DNA from: Candidatus Polarisedimenticolaceae bacterium
GTDB taxonomy: Bacteria; Acidobacteriota; Polarisedimenticolia; Polarisedimenticolales; DASRJG01
NCBI GenBank assembly: GCA_036376135.1
Contig: DASVAW010000081.1
Location: 1 to 38,281 of the forward strand
Reading direction: 5' to 3'
DNA: 38,281 nt
The notes under the pieces: model-generated
The model's database searches: none
Seen by the model: the letters and a program-made list of their open reading frames with translations, nothing else
What the model was told of the DNA's origin: nothing
Shown here: positions 24,666 to 35,938 of the stretch, one piece after another
Numbering within the stretch: position 1 is the stretch's first letter
How the letters are laid out: every line of letters begins with the position of its first letter
Made by a program: the position numbers and the translations under genes

Positions 24666-27299
24666 TCACCGCTCGAGCCGCCCGGCGAACCCGAGGTCGA
24701 GGTGAACCGTGCGCCGCGAGCCGATCCCGTCCGGGGCCCGGAAGGTGAAGATGCGCTGCCCGTCGGGGCTCACGCCGAAGGAATTGAAGACGAGGTTCAT
24801 CGCCACGCGATCGAAAAGCCGCTCGGGCCGGCCGGCGTCGAACCCGCGGCTCGTGTCGATCCGCACCACGTAAAGGGCGCCGTCGCTCCGGTAGAACAGC
24901 TCCTTTCCGTCGGCGCTCCAGTGCGGCTCGACGCCGAAGGGAGCCGAGACCTGCCAGCGCCCCGGGCCGTCCGGGAACGGGCGAACGTAGACCCCCGATT
25001 GCCCGCCCTCCCTCGAGACGTACGCCACCCAGCGCCCGTCCGGGGAGACGACCGCGCCGTCCTTCGAGAACGGTCCGCCGACGAGAACGCGGGGCTCGCG
25101 TTTTCCCTCCAGCGGCAGCAGCCAGATGTCGCGTTTGTCCGGGGAATCGTCGAGCCGGTCGTAGAGCAAGGCCTTGCCGTCGGAGGTGAAGGAGCTGGGA
25201 AGGTGCCCGCGCGTCCCCTCGAACAGGACCTCCGGGTCCCGGCTGCCGTCGGCGTCCTTCCAGAGGATCTGCCAGAGGTTCTGGCTGCCGCGGGGTAGGC
25301 GCATCGCGTAGGCGATCTTCGTCCCGTCGTGGGTCCAGACCGGGCTCTGCACCGTCTGACCCGAGGTCAGACGGGAGACCGACCCGCGCTCGAGATCGTA
25401 GACCCACAGATCGGCGTTTCCCCCTTCGCCGCCGGTGAGGGCCACGCGCCTCCCGTCCGGGGAGAGCGCCGCCTCGTTGTAGGTCGCTCTCGGAACGGCC
25501 GCCGGAGTCTCCCTTCCCGCGCGATCGATCCAGACGAACCGGTAGGCGACCTCCGTCGAGCCCGGGACCCACAACGCGCTGCCGGACTCCGAGATCGAGA
25601 AGTTGACCGCCCCCGAGCTGACGTCGGTCGCGACCCCCTGGACCGCGGGCTTCGCCGCGCCCCGAACCTCGAGCGACTGCGGGTCGATCGGCACCGCGAA
25701 CAGCGATCCCCCGCGGGCGACGACGAGGTGGCCCGCGGCGTACCGCGCCTGGCTCGCCCCTTCGAACAGCACCTTCCGCTCGCCGGTGGCCGGGCGCACC
25801 GCTTCGATGCGGGCGTCGTCGTAGTACTCGGTGGACCCCGCGTCGTCGCAGGTGAAGAGGACCGCGCTTCCGTCCGGGAGAGCCGACGGCCACCGGTGGG
25901 TGCGCTCGTTGCGTCCCTCGTCGAGCGTCGTGACGACTTGCACCGGGCCGCCCTTCTCCGAGACGCGCGACAGCCCGCCCTCGGAGTCGGAGGTGAAGTA
26001 GAGGTGGCCGTCGCGGCTCCAGGTCCCTCCCCGGATCTGGCTCCCGGTGGGAGCGATCCGGATCGGGGCCCCGCCGGTGGTCGGGATCTTGAACAGGCCT
26101 CCGTCGCGGAAAAAGGCGATCCACAGGCCGTCCGGAGAGAAGAACGGCGCCGTCGCGCGCTCGGTGTCGGGGAGGAGCGTCGGCTCGAACGCCTCGTCGC
26201 TCCTCAGAAGCAACCGCGGCACCGTGTCCGAGCCGACGGCGACGACCACCTGCCGGCGCCCGTCGGACGAGATCGCGATCTGGGGAAACTCCGTGTTCGA
26301 CACGTTCAGCCCGTCGGGGAGCGACAGCGCGTACCGCTGCGTGGCCGCGGGCGGCGCGGAGGTGCGCGGCCAGAAGCCCGCGACGACCGCGAGGGCGAGA
26401 GCCGCGGCGGCGACGATCCAGGGGGCTCGGGACGGCGTCGAGGACGCCGCCTTCGTTCCGGCGGGCCGCTCGAGCGCGATCCTGGCCTCCCCGATGTCCC
26501 GCAGGCGCAGCTTCGCGTCGCGCTCGAGGCAGCGCTTCCACAACGAAGCATAGGGGAGGGCGTCGACCTCGATCGGCCGCGTCAACACGCCGGCGATCGT
26601 GTCGGAGACCGTCTCGCCCTCGAAGAGCCGCCGGCCGGTGAGCATCTCGACGGCGACCACGCCGAACGCCCAGATGTCGGCGCGCTTGTCCACGGGACGG
26701 CCGCGCGCCTGTTCGGGGCTCATGTACGCCGCGGTGCCGAGGATCATGCCGACCGCCGTCCCCGCGCTCGTCAGCGTCGGCAGGATCGTCGGCGTCGACA
26801 CCGGTCCCGACATCGTCGGATCCCCGACGATCGCCTTCGCGAGGCCGAAGTCGAGGACCTTCACGGGTCCGTCGGGGGTGATCCGGATGTTCGCGGGCTT
26901 GAGATCGCGGTGGACGATGCCGCGCTCGTGGGCGTATTCGAGCGCCTCGGCGATCTTGAGCGCGATCCCCTTGGCTTCTTCGGTCGGGATCGGGCCACGG
27001 GACATGCGCTGGTCGAGCCCCTCGCCCGGGACCATCTCCATGGCGAGGAAGCGGACGCCTTCGGCCTCGTGGAACCCGTGGATCGCGGCGATGTTCGGGT
27101 GGTTCAGCGACGCGAGGACCTTGGCCTCGCGGTCGAATCGTGCGAGGCGCTCGGGGTCGGCGGCGAACTCCGGCGGGAGAATCTTGATCGCGACATCGCG
27201 GCCGAGGGTCGAATCGGTCGCCCGCCAGACCTGGCCCATCCCTCCCTCGCCGATCTTCTCGGCGAGGCGGTAGTGGAGCAGCGAGCTTCCGGACAGCAT
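24666..27299 (-). CDS. membrane Ser/Thr kinase with TolB/PD40 propeller (kinase 1)
   Basis: This 877-residue Hanks-type kinase is fused through one membrane helix (PWIVAAAALALAVVAGFWP, about residue 300) to a large extracytoplasmic beta-propeller. Kinase motifs are intact: glycine loop GEGGMGQVW, catalytic Lys in VAIKI, HRDLKPAN, DFGLAK and AYMSPEQ. The activation loop is long and Ser/Thr-rich. The propeller carries TolB/PD40 signatures such as FFSPDGLWIAFF, VVSPDGRWVAYVS and PHWSADGKELFY. The kinase domain is nearly identical to those of kinases 2 and 3, whereas the propeller differs. I start at ATG 27299 instead of an upstream in-frame codon at 27353, because homologues begin at LLHYRL and a TACAAT hexamer lies six bases upstream. 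The likely role is sensing an external signal and phosphorylating cytoplasmic targets. Confidence 0.9.
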   Translation of the reverse strand: MLSGSSLLHYRLAEKIGEGGMGQVWRATDSTLGRDVAIKILPPEFAADPERLARFDREAKVLASLNHPNIAAIHGFHEAEGVRFLAMEMVPGEGLDQRMSRGPIPTEEAKGIALKIAEALEYAHERGIVHRDLKPANIRITPDGPVKVLDFGLAKAIVGDPTMSGPVSTPTILPTLTSAGTAVGMILGTAAYMSPEQARGRPVDKRADIWAFGVVAVEMLTGRRLFEGETVSDTIAGVLTRPIEVDALPYASLWKRCLERDAKLRLRDIGEARIALERPAGTKAASSTPSRAPWIVAAAALALAVVAGFWPRTSAPPAATQRYALSLPDGLNVSNTEFPQIAISSDGRRQVVVAVGSDTVPRLLLRSDEAFEPTLLPDTERATAPFFSPDGLWIAFFRDGGLFKIPTTGGAPIRIAPTGSQIRGGTWSRDGHLYFTSDSEGGLSRVSEKGGPVQVVTTLDEGRNERTHRWPSALPDGSAVLFTCDDAGSTEYYDDARIEAVRPATGERKVLFEGASQARYAAGHLVVARGGSLFAVPIDPQSLEVRGAAKPAVQGVATDVSSGAVNFSISESGSALWVPGSTEVAYRFVWIDRAGRETPAAVPRATYNEAALSPDGRRVALTGGEGGNADLWVYDLERGSVSRLTSGQTVQSPVWTHDGTKIAYAMRLPRGSQNLWQILWKDADGSRDPEVLFEGTRGHLPSSFTSDGKALLYDRLDDSPDKRDIWLLPLEGKREPRVLVGGPFSKDGAVVSPDGRWVAYVSREGGQSGVYVRPFPDGPGRWQVSAPFGVEPHWSADGKELFYRSDGALYVVRIDTSRGFDAGRPERLFDRVAMNLVFNSFGVSPDGQRIFTFRAPDGIGSRRTVHLDLGFAGRLER

Positions 27300-27305
27300 C
27301 GACGG

Positions 27306-27311
27306 ATTGTA
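27306..27311 (-). promoter_or_regulatory. putative -10 box of a leaderless promoter (kinase 1)
   Basis: TACAAT ends six bases before ATG 27299 on the minus strand, within CCCCTTACAATC, a sequence shared with the kinase 3 promoter. It overlaps the tip of the inverted repeat that starts at 27310. Confidence 0.6.
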
Positions 27312-27378
27312 AGGGGTCAAGTCTTCACCCGCGCGTTTTTCCCACGCCTGCAACCGTCGGTGAAGACCCGACCCCTTA
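27310..27378. repeat. REP-like imperfect inverted repeat between kinases 1 and 2
   Basis: Two 20-base arms, 27310-27329 and 27359-27378, match at 18 of 20 positions as inverted copies. Each reads TAAGGGGTC, two variable bases, then GTCTTCACC from its outer tip. The 29-base centre is not palindromic. The right tip supplies the TAA stop of kinase 2 (27378-27376) and the left tip overlaps the kinase 1 promoter. It resembles short REP elements mobilised by RAYT-type transposases, but no transposase is in the window. It may also end kinase 2 transcription. Confidence 0.65.
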
Positions 27379-30003
27379 ACGCGACCGCTCGTCCCGCCGG
27401 CCCTGAATCAGGTGGAACGGCGGCTCCTCGAGGGCCCCGGGCTGGACCACCGCGAGGAATCGCGAGTGATCGGGGGCTGCATCGATGGCCGAGACCTCCG
27501 CCGTCGCGGGAAACAGAAGGACAGGATCGCCGATCGAAAGTCCGTCCGCCGAGGGCGCGATCGACACCGACCACGTCCCGCGACGGTCCTGCGGGCCCCC
27601 GAAGAACAGGAGCTCCCCGCCGTCCCGGCGCCAGTGGGGCGGCCCGCCCCCCTGCGTGGACACCTGGATCTTCCGCTCGAGATCGGGGAAGGAGCGGAGG
27701 TACACCTCGAGGCGCCCGGACTCGTCGGAGACGTACGCGAGCCACCGTCCGTCGGGGGACAGCACCGGTGTTCCGACGTTGTAGTCCTCCGCGATCCACG
27801 CGCGCGCCTTGCGCTCGCGCTCGTCGTAGATCCAGATCTGCGAGCGCACGACCCCCTGGCGAGGGCGTCCCGTGAACAGGAGGTAGCGGCCGTCGGCGCT
27901 CCAGTCGTACAGCACGGTGTCGACGTCCTCCGCAATCCAGAGCCGCTCCTTCGGCCGCGTTCCCGCGGCCGACATGACGTAGAGGTCATCGACGCCCGAG
28001 TCCCGATTGTTGAACGCGATCCGCGTGCCGTCGGGGGACCAGACCGGGGCCAACGAGTCGTTCTGGCTGCGCGTCAGGCGCGTGAGCGTGCCGCGCCCGA
28101 GCTCCCCGACGGAGATCTCCGTCAGCCCGTTCGCGTCGTCCATGGCGGCGGCGAAGCGGGTGAGGTCGGGGGAGATCCGGATCGACATCACGTCCTGCGA
28201 CAGCGCCATCACGGGGGTCGCCGCGCCCTTGCGATCGAGCCACTCTATTCTCGGCTGCGGGCGCGGATTGGGACCCAGGAACACGATGTCGCCGTCGCGG
28301 CTGGCGCTCACTGCCGCGATCCCGGAGTTCGGCGAGTAGCGGATCCCGGGTGCGACCACCGTCGACTGCGATCCGATCGCGAACGTCCGCGGGTCGAACG
28401 GCACGGCGAGCAGGTTCCCTTCCCGGTGAAACAGCAGCCTCGAGCCGGTCAGGACGAACGAGCCCGTGTCCCGCGTGAGACGCCGGGGCTCCCCGCCGCC
28501 CACCGAGGCGAGATAGAGACCGCCGACCTCGGCGACCGCCTTCGCGTTGTTCGACCAGACCGAGAACAGGAAGTGCTCGCCGTCCGGAAGCCAGATCGGC
28601 AGGCGATGGGAGCCGTCCACGATCGCGGGGTCGAGCGTCGTCACGCGTTCGGGCGTTCCCCCCGTGGCGGGGACGCGCCAGAGCGCGGAGTTCGCGCTCG
28701 GCGCGTAGAGGATCGTGCCGTCCTTCCCCCAGCTCGCGCCGCGCGGCCCGACCCCTTCGGGGAGGATCGTCTCCACGACGCGGCCGGAGAGGTCGAGCCG
28801 TTTCAGCCCGCCTTCGGCGATGAAGCCGAGATTCGTCGAGTCCGGCGACCAGAAGGCATAGACGGATCCCTCCGTGCCCTCGAGCCGCTCGTAGTTGAAC
28901 CCGTCGAGCGAGCGAACGAGCAGGTGCGAGAGTCCGGCCGCGTCCACGCCGACGACGGCGAGGTGACGGCCGTCGGGAGAAAGCGCCGGCGGTGCGAAGC
29001 CGTCGGCGCGATAGTCGGAGGGAAAGGCGATCTCGACGCGTCGCTCGGGGATGGAGGGCGCTTCCTTGCGGGGGAGCCAACCCCAGATCGCGGCGACCGC
29101 CAGAATGCCGATCGCCGCGATGAGGGGCCACGAGGCGCGCGCCGCCGGCTTCGGCTTCGACTCCGCCGGCCGTTCGAGCGAGATGCGCGCCTCTCCGATG
29201 TCCCGCAGGCGCAGCTTCGGATCGCGTTCGAGGCAACGCTTCCAGAGCGAGGCGTACGGAAGCCCGTCGAGCTCGAGCGGTCGGGTGAGCACGCCCGCGA
29301 TCGTGTCGGAGACCGTCTCGCCTTCGAAGAGACGCTTGCCGGTGAGCATCTCGACCGCGACCACGCCGAACGCCCAGATGTCCGCGCGTCGGTCGACGGG
29401 TTTCCCTCGAGCCTGCTCGGGGGACATGTACGCCGCGGTGCCGAGGATCATCCCGGCCGCCGTGCCGGCGCTCGTCACGGTAGGGAGGATCGTCGGCGTC
29501 GACACCGGCCCCGACATCGTCGGGTCCCCGACCATCGCCTTCGCGAGGCCGAAGTCGAGGACCTTGACGGTTCCGTCGGGGGTGATGCGGATGTTCGCGG
29601 GCTTGAGATCGCGGTGGACGATCCCGCGTTCGTGGGCGTATTCGAGGGCCTCGGCGATCTTGAGCGCGATCCCCTTCGCCTCGTCGGCGGGGATCGCCCC
29701 GCGGGAGATCTTCCGGTCGAGCCCCTCGCCCGGGACCATCTCCATCGCCAGGAACCGCACCCCTCCGGCCTCGTGGAATCCGTAGATCGCGGCGATGTTC
29801 GGGTGGTTGAGGGCAGCGAGCACCTTGGCCTCGCGGTCGAAGCGGGCGAGGCGCTCGGGGTCGGCGGCGAACTCGGGGGGGAGGATCTTGATCGCGACGT
29901 CGCGGCCCAGGGTCGAGTCGCTCGCCCGCCAGACCTGGCCCATCCCTCCCTCGCCGATCTTCTCCGCGAGGCGGTAGTGGAGGAGCGAATCGCCGGCCTT
30001 CAT
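27376..30003 (-). CDS. membrane Ser/Thr kinase with TolB/PD40 propeller (kinase 2)
   Basis: This 875-residue paralogue of kinases 1 and 3 has GEGGMG (residues 17-22), Lys39, Glu58, HRDLKPAN (Asp132) and DFG (150-152), all intact. One membrane helix near 290-310 (WPLIAAIGILAVAAIWGWLP) leads to a propeller with blades such as ALSPDGRHLAVVG, PVWSPDGTRIAFN, YDWSADGRYLLF and VLSPDGRWLAYVS. The true start is ATG 30003 (MKAGDSLLHYRL). It overlaps the TGA of kinase 3 as ATGA (30000-30003), so kinases 3 and 2 form a translationally coupled pair. A much longer upstream reading frame in the same phase is only the antisense of conserved kinase 3 sequence and should be ignored. The stop is TAA from the adjacent inverted repeat. 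Confidence 0.9.
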   Translation of the reverse strand: MKAGDSLLHYRLAEKIGEGGMGQVWRASDSTLGRDVAIKILPPEFAADPERLARFDREAKVLAALNHPNIAAIYGFHEAGGVRFLAMEMVPGEGLDRKISRGAIPADEAKGIALKIAEALEYAHERGIVHRDLKPANIRITPDGTVKVLDFGLAKAMVGDPTMSGPVSTPTILPTVTSAGTAAGMILGTAAYMSPEQARGKPVDRRADIWAFGVVAVEMLTGKRLFEGETVSDTIAGVLTRPLELDGLPYASLWKRCLERDPKLRLRDIGEARISLERPAESKPKPAARASWPLIAAIGILAVAAIWGWLPRKEAPSIPERRVEIAFPSDYRADGFAPPALSPDGRHLAVVGVDAAGLSHLLVRSLDGFNYERLEGTEGSVYAFWSPDSTNLGFIAEGGLKRLDLSGRVVETILPEGVGPRGASWGKDGTILYAPSANSALWRVPATGGTPERVTTLDPAIVDGSHRLPIWLPDGEHFLFSVWSNNAKAVAEVGGLYLASVGGGEPRRLTRDTGSFVLTGSRLLFHREGNLLAVPFDPRTFAIGSQSTVVAPGIRYSPNSGIAAVSASRDGDIVFLGPNPRPQPRIEWLDRKGAATPVMALSQDVMSIRISPDLTRFAAAMDDANGLTEISVGELGRGTLTRLTRSQNDSLAPVWSPDGTRIAFNNRDSGVDDLYVMSAAGTRPKERLWIAEDVDTVLYDWSADGRYLLFTGRPRQGVVRSQIWIYDERERKARAWIAEDYNVGTPVLSPDGRWLAYVSDESGRLEVYLRSFPDLERKIQVSTQGGGPPHWRRDGGELLFFGGPQDRRGTWSVSIAPSADGLSIGDPVLLFPATAEVSAIDAAPDHSRFLAVVQPGALEEPPFHLIQGRRDERSR

Positions 30004-32630
30004 CGCGCCAGCCCCGACTTCCAGTCGCTCACCACGACGAGGGTCGGCGGGGGCGGCGCGGGGAGCGGCGTAGCGACGAGAAAGCGATCCCGCGCCGGGA
30101 CGTAGGCGAGGAGCTGGTACCCCTCGGGGAGCACGCGTCCGCCGAGGAGCGCACCGGGCGTCTCGACGTCGACGTCGTCGCCGACGACGCGGAAGGTCAC
30201 CGTCTGGAGCCTGCGCTCGGGGTCGACCCACCAGATCTCCCGGGGCGACAGCCAGCCCCACCGCTTGTAGGCGGCCGGGGTGGGGGTGATGCGCCAAACC
30301 GCGCCGGCGTCGGGGAACGAAGCGATCGACACCGACGTGCGCACGAGCCCATCGTCGCCGGTGCCCTCGAACGCCGCGAACCGTCCGTCCGGGGAAAGCT
30401 CGGGGCCGTAGTACCCGCGCGGGGACGAAAGGTACGGGCGCGACGGGTGGTCGCCGCCGAGCGTCATCACCTTGAGCTCGCCGATCTTCCCTCCGCCCCG
30501 GCGCTCTTCGTAGAGGAGCTGGCGTCCGTCCTCGGTGAACGATCCGGGCTCGAACTCGGATCCCTTCGACGAGGTGACGATGCGGATCTCCTCCTCGCGC
30601 ATCGTCGACTTGAGCGCGAGCTGGTTGCCCTGCTTGCCGTACAGCGACAGCGCGAGCGTGCGCCCATCGGGGGACCACGACGAGCTGTAGATGTAGAACG
30701 TCGATCCGACCGGACTCGACGTTCCACGCTCGAGGTCCGCGAGGGTCAGACGTGCCTCTCCGTGGTCGTCGAACGTGTGCAGGGCGGCGCGCCGGCCGTC
30801 ACGGCTCACCGAGGCCGAGCGCACCGAGCTGGGTCCGAGGGGGATCGGCGTTTCGTTCCCGGCGCGATCGATCCAGATCAGGCGACGCTTTTCCGCCGGC
30901 TGGACCTCCTGGTACACGAGGCGCCCGCCGGCCGAGATCCCCAGGTTCAGGAAGTTCCGGTTGACGTCGTACTGCGCCCGGCTCGCCAAGGGAGTCGGGG
31001 CTCCGGCGAGCTGCAGCGTCGAGAGGTCGAACGGCTGAAGCATCAGGTTGGCGTCGCGGACGAACGCGAGAAACCCCGGCTCGACGTAAAAGGCCTCCGT
31101 CTCGCCTTCGAGGATCTGCTTCGAGGTGCCGCTCGCGGGGTCGAAGACCCACGCGCCGGACTCGCTCGGCTGCTCCCTGCCGCCGGAGTAATACAGGACG
31201 CGCCGGCCGTCGGGGAGGAACTGCGGCAGGCGCTGGGTCTCTCCCTCGCTCGCGAGCTTCGTGAGCGGCGTCGACGTTCCTCCTCCGTCCGCGACCTCGT
31301 GGAGGACGCCGAAGGCGCCGGGCGCGAAGACGATCTTCCCGTCGCGCCCCCAGGCTCCACCGCGTCCCTGCGGGGCGTCGGCCAGAACGCTCACGATCCC
31401 GTCGGCGATACCGATCCTCTTCAGCTTCCCCTCGGCGAAGAACCCGAGGTTCTTCCCGTCCGGGGACCAGAACGGGTAGGTCGCCCCCTCCGTTCCCTGC
31501 AGCGACTTCACCTCGAGCCGCGAGAGATCGCGCAGGAAGATCCGCGTGGTCTTGGCCTCTTGGTCGCCCGCGACGAGCGCCAACGTCGTTCCGTCGGGCG
31601 AGAGCGCGACCGATCGATCGTAGGTGACGAGCTCGAGCGTGGGCGGAAGGGCGAGCGTCGCGCGGATCGGAGGCGCCGGGGGAGGGGCGCTCGCCGGTCG
31701 CCAAAAGAAGGCGGCGACGGCGAGCATCGCCGCGACCGCCGCGACGATCCAAGGGAGCCTCGACGGCTTCGACGCCTCCCGGCGCTCCACCGGGTTCTGC
31801 TCGAGGGCGATCCGCGCTTCCCCGATGTCGCGCAGGCGCCTCTTCGGATCACGCTCGAGGCAGCGCTCCCAGAGCGAGGCGTACGGGAGCGTTTCGACCT
31901 CGATCGGTCGGGTGAGCACGCCCGCGATCGTGTCGGAGACCGTCTCGCCGTCGAAGAGCCGCTTGCCGGTCAGCATCTCGACCGCGACGACGCCGAACGC
32001 CCAGATGTCCGCGCGCCGGTCGACGGGTTTTCCTCGCGCCTGCTCGGGGGACATGTACGCCGCGGTGCCGAGGATCATCCCGACGGCGGTGCCGGCGCTC
32101 GTCACGGTTGGGAGGATCGTCGGCGTCGACACCGGCCCGGAGATCGTCGGATCTCCCACGATCGCCTTCGCGAGGCCGAAGTCGAGGACCTTGACGGTTC
32201 CGTCGGGGGTGATGCGGATGTTCGCGGGCTTGAGGTCGCGGTGGACGATCCCGCGCTCGTGGGCGTATTCGAGGGCCTCGGAGATCTTGAGCGCGATCGC
32301 CTTCGCCTCGTCGGCGGGGATCGGGCCGCGGGAGATGCGCTGGTCGAGCCCCTCGCCGGGGACCATCTCCATCGCCAGGAACCGGACGCCGCCGGCTTCG
32401 TGGAACCCGTGGATCGCCGCGATGTTCGGGTGGTTGAGGGCCGCAAGGACCTTGGCCTCCCGGTCGAATCGCGCGAGCCGCTCCGGGTCGGCGGCGAACT
32501 CGGGGGGGAGGATCTTGATCGCGACGTCGCGGCCGAGCGTCGAATCGCTCGCCCGCCAGACCTGGCCCATCCCGCCCTCGCCGATCTTCTCGGCAAGGCG
32601 GTAGTGCAGAAGCGAAGCGCCGGGTACCAT
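30000..32630 (-). CDS. membrane Ser/Thr kinase with TolB/PD40 propeller (kinase 3)
   Basis: This 876-residue kinase has an N-terminal catalytic domain with all Hanks motifs (GEGGMGQVW, VAIKI, HRDLKPAN, DFGLAK, AYMSPEQ). A membrane helix (PWIVAAVAAMLAVAAFFW) and an extracytoplasmic propeller follow (ALSPDGTTLALVA, PFWSPDGKNLGFF, SWSPDGRTLALS, ELSPDGRFAAFEG). It is the first gene of a two-gene unit with kinase 2. ATG 32630 is preceded at six bases by TAGAAT. The gene is divergent from the cupin gene, with only 25 bases between their start codons. The kinase half is nearly the same as in kinases 1 and 2, with a different propeller, so the paralogues probably share downstream targets but respond to different signals. 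Confidence 0.9.
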   Translation of the reverse strand: MVPGASLLHYRLAEKIGEGGMGQVWRASDSTLGRDVAIKILPPEFAADPERLARFDREAKVLAALNHPNIAAIHGFHEAGGVRFLAMEMVPGEGLDQRISRGPIPADEAKAIALKISEALEYAHERGIVHRDLKPANIRITPDGTVKVLDFGLAKAIVGDPTISGPVSTPTILPTVTSAGTAVGMILGTAAYMSPEQARGKPVDRRADIWAFGVVAVEMLTGKRLFDGETVSDTIAGVLTRPIEVETLPYASLWERCLERDPKRRLRDIGEARIALEQNPVERREASKPSRLPWIVAAVAAMLAVAAFFWRPASAPPPAPPIRATLALPPTLELVTYDRSVALSPDGTTLALVAGDQEAKTTRIFLRDLSRLEVKSLQGTEGATYPFWSPDGKNLGFFAEGKLKRIGIADGIVSVLADAPQGRGGAWGRDGKIVFAPGAFGVLHEVADGGGTSTPLTKLASEGETQRLPQFLPDGRRVLYYSGGREQPSESGAWVFDPASGTSKQILEGETEAFYVEPGFLAFVRDANLMLQPFDLSTLQLAGAPTPLASRAQYDVNRNFLNLGISAGGRLVYQEVQPAEKRRLIWIDRAGNETPIPLGPSSVRSASVSRDGRRAALHTFDDHGEARLTLADLERGTSSPVGSTFYIYSSSWSPDGRTLALSLYGKQGNQLALKSTMREEEIRIVTSSKGSEFEPGSFTEDGRQLLYEERRGGGKIGELKVMTLGGDHPSRPYLSSPRGYYGPELSPDGRFAAFEGTGDDGLVRTSVSIASFPDAGAVWRITPTPAAYKRWGWLSPREIWWVDPERRLQTVTFRVVGDDVDVETPGALLGGRVLPEGYQLLAYVPARDRFLVATPLPAPPPPTLVVVSDWKSGLAR
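32625..32630 (+). promoter_or_regulatory. possible -10 box of the cupin gene
   Basis: TACCAT on the plus strand covers the kinase 3 start codon and lies 25 bases before the cupin ATG. Transcription would start near 32637, just before the AAGGGGAGG Shine-Dalgarno sequence at 32642-32650. It overlaps the opposing kinase promoter. Confidence 0.3.
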
Positions 32631-32636
32631 CCGGGG

Positions 32637-32642
32637 ATTCTA
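32637..32642 (-). promoter_or_regulatory. putative -10 box of a leaderless promoter (kinase 3)
   Basis: TAGAAT ends six bases before ATG 32630 on the minus strand, within CCCCTTAGAATC, which matches the kinase 1 promoter at all but one of these 12 positions. It lies between two divergent start codons 25 bases apart. Confidence 0.6.
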
Positions 32643-32655
32643 AGGGGAGGCCCGC

Positions 32656-33153
32656 ATGGAACAGCCCAGAATCGTCAACCTCAACGAGCTCCCGCCCGCG
32701 ACCGACCGCGAGCACGGGGAGAAATTCGCTTCGAGCCACGTTCCGATCGGTGCCCCGCTCGGCGCGAGGAAGCTCGGTTACAACCTGACCGAGATCCCTC
32801 CCGGCAAGCGCGCGTTCCCGTACCACTTCCACCACGTCAACGAGGAGTTGTTCCTCATCCTCTCGGGGACCGGGGAGCTGCGCTGGCCCGGCGGCACTGC
32901 TCCGCTGAAAGCCATGGACCTGATCTGCTGCCCTCCGGGACCCGACAGCGCGCACCAGATCTTCAACAACGGGAGCGTGCCGCTCCGTTATCTCGCGTTG
33001 AGCACCACCGAAGACCCCGAGGTCGTCGAGTACCCCGACTCCGGCAAATACGGCGTCACCGTCGGTCGCAAGCTCGGCGGCACACCCGCGGAGTCGAAGT
33101 TCCGGGTGATCGCGTTCAAGAAGGACCAGGTCGACTACTTCGCCGGAGAGTAA
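32656..33153 (+). CDS. cupin-domain protein
   Basis: This is a small single-domain cupin of 165 residues. The first cupin motif is FPYHFHHVNEELFLILSGTG, with clustered His and Glu metal-ligand candidates. The second is CPPGPDSAHQIFNN, with the usual His. It is probably a metal-binding cytoplasmic enzyme or sensor of the cupin_2 group. Such domains serve as isomerases, dioxygenases or sugar binders, and I cannot choose among them. A good Shine-Dalgarno sequence (AAGGGGAGG, five bases before ATG) sets the start. It is the only plus-strand gene in the kinase block and is convergent with kinase 4. Its TAA stop is the tip of the long inverted repeat. Confidence 0.85.
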   Translation: MEQPRIVNLNELPPATDREHGEKFASSHVPIGAPLGARKLGYNLTEIPPGKRAFPYHFHHVNEELFLILSGTGELRWPGGTAPLKAMDLICCPPGPDSAHQIFNNGSVPLRYLALSTTEDPEVVEYPDSGKYGVTVGRKLGGTPAESKFRVIAFKKDQVDYFAGE

Positions 33154-33283
33154 ATGGGGACAGCAACCTATTTCGGAGAATAGGGACAGTCCTTCATCTC
33201 TCGATCCCGCAGTGCTTGCTTCGGGTTCGGGGGATGAAGGACTGTCCCTATTCTCCGAAATAGGTTGCTGTCCCCATTTACTC
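33148..33283. repeat. perfect 51-bp inverted repeat between cupin and kinase 4 genes
   Basis: Arms 33148-33198 and 33233-33283 are exact inverted copies around a 34-base centre. From each outer end the sequence reads GAGTAAATGGGGACAGCAAC and continues through CTATTTCGGAGAATAGGGAC to CTTCATC. The TAA at each tip is the stop codon of the flanking gene: the cupin at 33151-33153 and kinase 4 at 33280-33278. It would form a very stable cruciform or RNA hairpin in both directions, so it can act as a shared terminator. The GGGGACAG...GGGACAG style is like RAYT-associated REP elements; that comparison is from memory, not from a search. Confidence 0.85.
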
Positions 33284-35938
33284 CAGCGTCAGCATCCAGA
33301 TGTCCCCCTCCGCGATCGACCGGTTGAGGACGAGGGTGCGACCGTCGGCGGAGAGGTCCATATCGGACGGGCCGGGAAGCGCGGGAAGATCCAGGATTCG
33401 GCGGGCCTCCGCGTCCCAGAGGATCGCCACGTCGCGTCGGTCGTCCCACGAGAGGACGCGCCGTCCGTCGGGGAGCCACACCGCCCCGCCGGCCCAGTGG
33501 CCGAAGTCCCGGCCCTCCGGGTCGCGCTGCAGTTCGAGCCGGTCGGTCGCCGGGGTGTAGACCGCCGCCACGTTCCCTCGCGGGGTGATCGAGAACCCGG
33601 TGATCCGGCTCCCGTCCGGCGACCACGCCGCGGGATAGAACGGTCCCGCCGAGGTCTCGATCTCGAGCGAGACGGCCGGCGGGGTGTCGCCGAACCACGC
33701 GTCGTCCACCGTGGCGATCGCCAGCTGCGTCACGCCGACGTCCGGGTGAACCACCATCGCGACGCGCTTCCCGTCGCGGGAGACCGCAGGGACGTTGATC
33801 CCGGAGCCCGTGTCGGTCTTCAGCTGCCGCAGGTCGGTCCCGTCGCGGCGCACGAGCCACAACGCGTAGTCGCCGCCGCGGTTCGAGTAGAAGAGGATCC
33901 AGTCGGTCCCCTTCATCCAGACCGGCCCGCGGTTCCGGAAGGCGTCGTCGGTGAGGCGCCGCCGCCCGGTTCCGTCGGCGCGCATCACGAACACGTTCTC
34001 GACCGGGGAGGTCGTCCGGTAGGAGATCCAGGAGCCGTCGTCCGAGATGTCGGTCTGCGTGAACGGCCTCGCCGAGGAGAAGAGCGTCACCGGCTCCCCG
34101 ACGATCTTTCCGGCGACGGGATCGAACGCGGCGCGCAGGAGCTCCCCGCGCGAGGTGTCGATCGTCAGCGCGATGCGGCGGCCGTCGGCGGAGATGCATC
34201 CCTGCATCGGCCGGGCGACACCGGTCGTGACCGGCTCCGGCTCGCCCCGCGCGGTCCCTTCGGCCTCGTCGACGGCGATCCGCCAGAGGTCCGGACCTCC
34301 GCGCCGGTCGCTGAGGAAGTAGAGCCACGCGCCGTCGGGGGACCAGAACGGATCCCAGTCGGCCGGGGTGTCGTTCGTGATCGACGCGAAGGGACCTCCT
34401 TCGGCCGGGATCGTCCGCAGGTCGCGCTGTCCGGCGTCGGCGGACCAGAACGCGATCCGTCGCCCCGAAGGAGACCACACCGGCTGCACCGCGTCGCCGT
34501 CGTAGATCTTCGTCTTCTCTCCGGACGCGACGTCGACCACGAAGAGGCTGGCCGAGGTGTTCCGCGCGAACGGATTCGGCACGCGTTCGGTCGTGTAGAC
34601 GAGCTTCTTCCCGTCGGGGGACCACGCGGGGTGCGCCCCTTCGTTCGCGACCTTCCTCGGCGACTCTCCCGTCGCGCCCATCACGAAGATGCCTCCGCCC
34701 TCGCGGTCGGATCCGAAGGCGATGCGCTCGCCGTCGGGGGAGAACGCGGGGTCGAAGTCGTTGGAGCGCGCCGACGCCGTGAGGTTGACGGCGTTCTCGC
34801 CTCCCACGCGAAGGAGGAAGATGTCCTCGTCGCCGTCGTCTCCCGCGACGAACAGGAGACTCTTCCCGTCCGGGGAGAGGCTCGGCGCGTGTTGCGGGCC
34901 GGGGATGTCGGTCAGCTGGGCCATCGCGGCGACGTGCGAGCCGGACGCGAGGGCCCTCGTGGCGGGCGCCGGGCGCCCGATCCAGTTCGATCCTCCGAGC
35001 GCGCCGAGCACGAGGCAGATGACGCCGACCGCCGCGACGAAGCGCCAGGGGCGGTGCGTCGGAGCCGTCCCCGCGACGGGGGCGCCGCGATCGGCGCCGA
35101 TCTCGCGCAGGAGGATCGCGACGTCCGCCAGGTCGCGCACGCGCTCGCGCGGGTCCTTCGCGAGGCAGCGCTTGAGCGCGCGCTCGAGGCGCGGCCGCGC
35201 GGCGGCGGGGAGCGCGTTCCAGTCGGGGTCGTTGTGGACGATCGCGACGAGGACGTCGGTGACCGTCTCCCCGGGGAAAGCGACGCGTCCGGTGAGCATC
35301 TCGTAGACGAGGCAACCGAACGCCCAGACGTCCGCGCGTTTGTCGACGGGTTTGCCGCGCGCCTGCTCGGGGCTCATGTACGCCGCGGTGCCCAGGATCA
35401 TCCCCGCCGCGGTCCCTGCGGAGGTCCGCGTCATCGACGCGCCGGAGCCGGAGGCGATCATCGCCTCGGAGGTCTTCGCGAGGCCGAAGTCGAGGACCTT
35501 GATCGTCCCGTCGGGGAGGATCCTCACGTTCGCGGGCTTCAGGTCGCGGTGCACGATCCCGCTCTCGTGCGCGGCGTGGAGCGCCGCCGCGACCTGGCGC
35601 GCCGCTTCGAGGGCCTCGTCGAAGGGGAGCGGGCCGCGGCCGATGCGTGTCGAGAGGTCGTCCCCGGCGACGAGCTCCATCGCCAGGAAGCGGACGCCCC
35701 CCGCCTCGTGGAAGCCGTAGACCGCGGCGATGTTCGGGTGGTTGAGGGAGGCGAGGACCCTGGCCTCGCGCTCGAACCGCGCGAGCCTCTCGGGGTCGAG
35801 GGCGAACTCGGGGGGAAGGATCTTGATCGCGACCTCGCGGTCGAGGGTCGTGTCCCTGGCGCGCCAGACGACGCCCATTCCCCCTTCGCCGATCTTGTCG
35901 ACGAGGCGGTAGTGAAGGAGGGAATCGCCGGGACGCAT
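33278..35938 (-). CDS. membrane Ser/Thr kinase with TolB/PD40 propeller (kinase 4)
   Basis: This is the most divergent kinase of the four, 886 residues. Motifs are intact: GEGGMGVVW, VAIKI, HRDLKPAN, DFGLAK and AYMSPEQ. The activation loop (TSEAMIASGSGASMTRTSAG) is shorter and different from the others. A membrane helix (WRFVAAVGVICLVLGALGG) precedes a propeller with many clear PD40 blades: SLSPDGKSLLFVA, AFSPDGERIAFG, AWSPDGKKLVYT, VWSPSGRRIAFW, FWSPDGAWLYFLS and AWSPDGSRITGFS. It ends in DIWMLTLE. It is transcribed alone from a TAGAAT promoter six bases before ATG 35938. The stop codon is in the 51-bp inverted repeat. It probably senses a different extracytoplasmic signal. Confidence 0.9.
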   Translation of the reverse strand: MRPGDSLLHYRLVDKIGEGGMGVVWRARDTTLDREVAIKILPPEFALDPERLARFEREARVLASLNHPNIAAVYGFHEAGGVRFLAMELVAGDDLSTRIGRGPLPFDEALEAARQVAAALHAAHESGIVHRDLKPANVRILPDGTIKVLDFGLAKTSEAMIASGSGASMTRTSAGTAAGMILGTAAYMSPEQARGKPVDKRADVWAFGCLVYEMLTGRVAFPGETVTDVLVAIVHNDPDWNALPAAARPRLERALKRCLAKDPRERVRDLADVAILLREIGADRGAPVAGTAPTHRPWRFVAAVGVICLVLGALGGSNWIGRPAPATRALASGSHVAAMAQLTDIPGPQHAPSLSPDGKSLLFVAGDDGDEDIFLLRVGGENAVNLTASARSNDFDPAFSPDGERIAFGSDREGGGIFVMGATGESPRKVANEGAHPAWSPDGKKLVYTTERVPNPFARNTSASLFVVDVASGEKTKIYDGDAVQPVWSPSGRRIAFWSADAGQRDLRTIPAEGGPFASITNDTPADWDPFWSPDGAWLYFLSDRRGGPDLWRIAVDEAEGTARGEPEPVTTGVARPMQGCISADGRRIALTIDTSRGELLRAAFDPVAGKIVGEPVTLFSSARPFTQTDISDDGSWISYRTTSPVENVFVMRADGTGRRRLTDDAFRNRGPVWMKGTDWILFYSNRGGDYALWLVRRDGTDLRQLKTDTGSGINVPAVSRDGKRVAMVVHPDVGVTQLAIATVDDAWFGDTPPAVSLEIETSAGPFYPAAWSPDGSRITGFSITPRGNVAAVYTPATDRLELQRDPEGRDFGHWAGGAVWLPDGRRVLSWDDRRDVAILWDAEARRILDLPALPGPSDMDLSADGRTLVLNRSIAEGDIWMLTLE

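Follow-up and report, generated by a model that had tools for sequence, protein, structure and literature searches.

Why do the TAA stop codons of one contig lie only where two inverted repeats meet the ends of genes? The window, by which we mean the whole stretch of DNA analyzed, comprises 38,281 nucleotides and is the entire contig C81 of a 4.38-Mb draft genome. The public relatives that match it best are metagenome assemblies of Acidobacteriota, so the source genome is apparently acidobacterial. Gene ends were predicted with a dicodon (codon-model) gene caller written for this analysis and trained on the genome; its calls are model-based. The caller reproduced the gene ends listed in a preliminary description of the window, namely 24 complete ends comprising 16 TGA, five TAG (2861, 11162, 20060, 20693, 20698) and three TAA (27376, 33153, 33278). 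As that description had also stated, all three TAA codons form the outer tips of the two inverted repeats, and they are identical to the three gene ends that touch an element. The features concerned are as follows.

27310 to 27378, no strand: family B palindromic element with TAAGGGGTC tips, between two tandem kinase genes
27376 to 30003, reverse strand: serine/threonine kinase gene with PD40 repeats, upstream tandem neighbor of the family B element
27376 to 27378, reverse strand: TAA stop of this kinase gene, where the family B element has its outer tip
32656 to 33153, forward strand: cupin-domain protein gene (165 aa), left convergent neighbor of the family A element
33151 to 33153, forward strand: TAA stop of the cupin gene, composed of a host T and the AA of the family A tip
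33152 to 33279, no strand: family A palindromic element with AAATGGGGACAGCAACCTATTTC tips on both sides, between the convergent pair
33278 to 35938, reverse strand: serine/threonine kinase gene with PD40 repeats (protein kinase / beta-propeller), right convergent neighbor of the family A element
33278 to 33280, reverse strand: TAA stop of this second kinase gene, at the opposite tip of the same family A element

The two elements belong to different families. In the family A element, the arms carry an inner GGGACAG unit and are separated by a 6-nt gap. With a mirror-matching flank, GAGT, included, the inverted repeat spans 33148-33283 and has arms of 65 nt (94%). The element folds into a single hairpin of -122.9 kcal/mol (z -23). 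An Rfam search of this hairpin returned no match above the gathering score; the microRNA-precursor matches were all below that threshold, and such an identity was rejected as spurious. The family B element is a shorter inverted repeat at 27310-27378 (arms 20 nt, 90%). It is located upstream of the kinase gene ending at 24666, 10 nt from that gene's probable ATG (27299; read from the sequence), and may affect translation initiation there. Four serine/threonine kinase genes with PD40 propeller repeats occur in this one stretch of the window (24666-27320, 27376-30003, 30000-32630, 33278-35938); three are in tandem, and they share stretches that are about 90% identical at the DNA level.

Both families are dispersed in the genome. 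The family A pattern (AAATRGGGACAGCAACCTATTTC) has 66 tip matches and the family B pattern (AAGGGGTCARGTCTTCACC) has 20, against none for either reversed control. Copies of family A are near-perfect palindromes of about 50-180 bp. Some are nested, with a younger element within an older one and the gene stops at the outer tips (L053:11773-11956, L057:3760-3939, L082:16153-16293, L087:8537-8676). The conserved tip of family A is AAATRGGG; it is preceded by T in 22 of 46 tips, with a G-T preference outside the tip and flanks that are otherwise diverse. Family B has AA or GA followed by GGGGTC, and the preceding base is variable. The TAA tip that the two elements were proposed to share is partly coincidence, since the T is often host sequence.

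Within the window, the chance that three TAA codons coincide with the three element-touching ends is 1/C(24,3), or 1 in 2,024 (5e-4). To place this in a wider context, we analyzed another 80 stretches, each no longer than 20 kb, from the same genome; 40 of them were chosen without regard to repeats. Including the window, the sample spans 1.30 Mb and 1,055 complete stops, 89 of which are TAA. Elements were scored by their tip patterns, and the catalog is partial. The suggestion that TAA occurs only at repeat elements does not survive this comparison: 58 of the 89 TAA stops (65%) are at no catalogued tip across the 1.30 Mb, and 32 of 36 in the repeat-blind stretches have no catalogued element. 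The association itself holds genome-wide, with TAA at 31 of 82 tips (38%) versus 58 of 973 stops elsewhere (6.0%; Fisher p = 4e-15). Thus TAA is too frequent at genes lacking repeats for exclusivity, but not frequent enough there to undo the enrichment. The proportion of TAG is also raised at tips (38% versus 25% elsewhere). The genome has a GC content of 70.7% and rarely uses TAA.

Might the pattern in the window merely reflect a small sample? If 6% of the stops away from elements are TAA, the remaining 21 genes of the window would contain none with probability 0.28, so that this part of the pattern is expected 28% of the time. The enrichment of 38% against 6% over 1,055 stops is a different matter, and it is seen again in G001, a genome from another genus of the same family, where TAA accounts for five of 11 stops at tips versus 48 of 677 elsewhere (p = 7e-4). 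The tip variants of G001 differ (TAAGGGGACAGCTACC, TAACCAGAGGGGACAG), yet five of its six placed copies are between convergent genes and show the same gene-end habit. Coincidence is accordingly an exceedingly improbable account and is already refuted for the TAA association, though it stands for the claim of exclusivity.

The placement of the elements is as distinctive as their stops. Counting both transposase-bearing parents described below, 42 copies could be placed: 27 between convergent genes, 13 between tandem genes and two between divergent genes. That the elements sit at gene ends, as proposed from the window, is borne out, with a stop no more than 15 nt from a tip in 39 of 42 copies and on both sides in 22 of 42; random points in the intergenic space of the same genome give 11% and 0.6%, respectively. 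In 12 of the 13 tandem copies, no more than 10 nt separate the tip from the stop of the upstream gene. Convergent genes are packed tightly in this genome (40 + 41 stretches), with a median gap of 9 nt; in their commonest arrangement (14 of 126), the two stop codons overlap by 4 nt.

It is somewhat unlikely that this distribution results purely from retention, whereby elements insert anywhere, only those that leave genes and promoters intact survive, and the AT-rich tips simply happen to hold stops. Such an account would fit the near absence of copies from divergent gaps, which hold promoters, and the position of most tandem copies away from the downstream start. It would also fit the alteration of some gene ends by up to 14 residues, which indicates that insertion is not exact. 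However, wide convergent gaps should be equally safe, and nevertheless neither stop is more than 15 nt from the tips in 22 of the 27 convergent copies. Gaps of up to 20 bp make up only 4.8% of convergent intergenic bases, and passive survival in harmless space would not cluster copies there. This clustering exceeds passive tolerance and argues against retention alone.

Three arrangements account for how the tips provide stops. With the tips aligned on TRGGG and positions reckoned from the AAA tip, stops end at +2 (T + AA = TAA), at +6 (AAA TAG, in the TAGGG variant, as in several genes) or at 0, where a host TGA or TAG lies directly outside. Comparison with related genomes supports the prediction that the element supplies the stop of the gene. 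For genes that end in a tip TAA here, the G001 orthologs end in TGA (six) or TAG (one) at almost the same codon, and the sole ortholog with TAA has an element of its own. As orthologs elsewhere use TAA in only about 7% of cases anyway, finding TGA or TAG in them carries little weight by itself; altered final codons are the better evidence. The cupin ortholog in G001 has the same last residue followed by TGA rather than TAA. For genes outside the window that were named by reading their sequences (Rho, SMC, aminotransferase, fumarate hydratase), several ends are derived. The Rho gene ends in GGG TAA here and in AGC TGA in G001, G002 and G004, the closest three of the relatives examined, while the SMC gene has a Leu codon, CTC, in the same three genomes and ends in GTC TGA here. 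An apparent ornithine aminotransferase has lost its last three residues and ends in the element's AAA TAG; it is about three residues longer in most relatives examined. Displaced gene ends, ranging from -14 to +7 residues, were also found at L084, L062, L058, L092 and L077, so exact targeting of stop codons is not required.

Two convergent pairs are conserved without an element in G001, the nearest relative, which represents another genus. At the pair corresponding to C104:15590, the empty junction is a 4-nt overlap and both proteins have the same length in the two genomes. At the pair corresponding to L084, the empty junction is an 11-nt overlap and the proteins here differ by -14 and +7 residues. 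Taken with the ortholog ends, these pairs indicate that the element replaces gene ends, often without change of length and sometimes by trimming or extending them. The cupin junction was dropped as an orthologous empty site because the facing gene in G001 is only a 26% propeller match. We also rejected insertion exactly into 4-nt overlapping stops (YTAR) as a general rule: under such a rule the host T should follow C or T, but G dominates at that position (29 of 46), and a 4-nt stop overlap was seen directly only for the C104:15590 pair. Different palindrome families occupy the same convergent junctions in the two genera (L236 of G001 versus L078:16066, and L255 versus L082:16187), which we read as repeated insertion or replacement at one site.

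The sequences flanking the elements have an unusual symmetry. Beyond the AAA, the two flanks of a copy match when read inward, as with GAGT in the window and AGAAGT, GTCTGA, GCGTGA and ACGGT elsewhere. The mean run of these mirror matches is 2.2 nt versus 0.6 nt in shuffles, none of 5,000 of which was as high. Target-site duplication was sought as direct repeats of at least 3 nt; whichever of four assumed tip positions was used, no more than one of 23 copies had any. With mirror-symmetric flanks in place of a direct target-site duplication, a target-duplicating MITE (DDE-type) was rejected. Natural palindromes at convergent ends were likewise rejected as the source of the symmetry, since the codons before the stops show none at convergent junctions without elements. 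The symmetry would arise either because short palindromes are targeted or because template switching on the palindrome copies one flank onto the other.

The first of these options belongs to a broader reading that is possible, if tentative: true target-site specificity, in which the transposase would recognize a feature of convergent ends (short palindromes or stop-codon sequence) and insert at its center. Both the concentration of copies in tight convergent junctions and the mirror-symmetric flanks speak for it, as do gene ends that hold different elements in the two genera (L078/L236, L082/L255, L054/L242, L089/L241). Against this, some insertions are several codons off the stop, the flanks are diverse save for the G-T preference, and the two orthologous empty junctions in G001 are not extended palindromes. 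The second option, in a form that we consider unlikely, holds that after or during insertion the flank of one gene end is copied mirror-wise onto its convergent neighbor, giving it the same last codons and stop, with the same ending in the same phase. The changes in two genes, and two only, would agree with flank copying: in SMC the conserved CTC TAG/TGA gave way to GTC TGA, which is also how the facing gene ends, and in Rho the conserved AGC TGA gave way to GGG TAA, which matches the GGGTAAA that faces it.

A further reading is that positive selection keeps the hairpins as insulators or terminators that act in both directions where genes converge tightly; the strong hairpin, the convergent bias and the fact that the same junctions are occupied repeatedly in both genera would fit it. 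We regard such a function as quite unlikely to explain the pattern. The sequence after the family A hairpin contains no U-tract, copies occur between tandem genes too, and most tight convergent junctions have no element, as 126 convergent gaps lack a catalogued one and 64% of these are no wider than 20 bp.

Candidates for the enzymes that move these elements are encoded in the same genome. There are two Y1 (HUH) tyrosine transposase genes, on contigs C179 and C30. The former sits between two family A tips and the latter between perfect 27-bp repeats, AAAGGGGTCAGGCCCCTTTTTCTTTCA, which represent a third dispersed family. Both proteins score above the cut-off of Pfam Y1_Tnp (PF01797). With the NCBIfam model for REP-associated tyrosine transposases (NF047646) they reach 70.7 and 77.7 bits, slightly under the cut-off of 80, compared with 22 bits against a cut-off of 55 for the IS200/IS605 model (NF033573). 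The motifs NHVH / NHAH and YVELNP / YVERNP are visible in the sequences. About 100 residues extend beyond the Y1 domain, and a search for a C-terminal HTH domain found no HTH family in Pfam at E <= 0.001. The GGGGWSAS motif is present as GGGGACAG in family A and GGGGTCAG in the C30 family; family B carries GGGGTCAA or GGGGTCGG, which fit it only partially, and a search for a transposase copy with family B ends found none. Dispersed, non-autonomous copies of the same repeats without a transposase gene are present. The two complete TIRtrons (L059:11557-12447, L092:11440-12340) both lie between convergent genes, and that on C179 gives AAA TAG to both neighbors, an apparent fumarate hydratase and the apparent ornithine aminotransferase, again named by reading the sequence.

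Taken together, these results make it very probable that mobile palindromes of the TIRtron kind lie at gene 3' ends and supply stops there, the window repeats being copies of miniature non-autonomous palindromic elements of the TIRtron/TIRYT kind. The elements would presumably be mobilized by the putatively REP-type Y1 (HUH) transposases (TIRYT) that the genome encodes. They occur almost exclusively at gene 3' ends, mostly where two genes converge with hardly any space, and insertion trims or lightly rewrites the last codons of the neighbors. The AT-rich tip then gives the stop, which is TAA after a host T and AAA TAG with the TAGGG variant; elsewhere the tip comes after a TGA or TAG left intact. 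Stops given in this way stand out as TAA because a genome of 70.7% GC seldom uses that codon. The clustering in tight junctions suggests an insertion preference (or benefit) on top of selection against gene-spoiling insertions. These findings provide a case, measured in two genomes, of mobile palindromes that reset protein ends and shift the use of stop codons in a genome rich in GC; the orthologs reveal the earlier ends. To our knowledge, the integration mode of TIRYT-type elements is not established; mirror-symmetric flanks without target duplication offer a testable lead.

Several known systems resemble these elements in part. The YPAL palindromes of Yersinia (De Gregorio, Di Nocera and colleagues) are long palindromes closely downstream of stop codons, with targets that overlap terminator-like sequences and with target duplications. 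Our elements, likened to YPALs by description, differ in that no target duplications were found. YPALs are named as a MITE in PMC3733652, and no stop-supplying MITEs at convergent genes turned up in a search of the literature. The same paper describes TIRYT/TIRtrons (Di Nocera et al. 2013) as transposase genes between inverted repeats with GGGGWSAS and with dispersed copies, an acidobacterial group included; most TIRYT have been placed in TnpA-Y1 subclass 2.1 (PMC6006769). The present elements are alike in having a putatively REP-type Y1 gene between terminal inverted repeats, GGGGWSAS, gene-less dispersed copies and an apparently acidobacterial source. Unlike the TIRtrons of PMC3733652, whose consulted text neither states stop supply by TIR repeats nor mentions mirror-symmetric flanks, they have tips that give TAA or AAA TAG and flanks that mirror each other, and family B departs further in being without a transposase copy.

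The closest parallel in habit is with GTAG REPs and their RAYTs. According to PMC3733652 and PMC2817692, convergent GTAG REPs lie no more than 20 bp from both 3' ends and tandem copies lie near the upstream 3' end; the former source adds that REP termini often provide a TAG stop (PMC3733652). Our elements share all three features, with convergent copies near both 3' ends, tandem copies near the upstream one, and tips that give stops. In contrast to GTAG REPs, they are long near-perfect palindromes, and the GTAG tetranucleotide was not found at the hairpin foot, where the family A tip consensus stands instead. The habit of supplying stops is thus already published for GTAG REPs, and the same habit is found here in TIR-type elements, with TAA and AAA TAG replacing GTAG. 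Direct ortholog evidence of the earlier gene ends comes in addition, and only the mirror-symmetric flanks might in principle be new.
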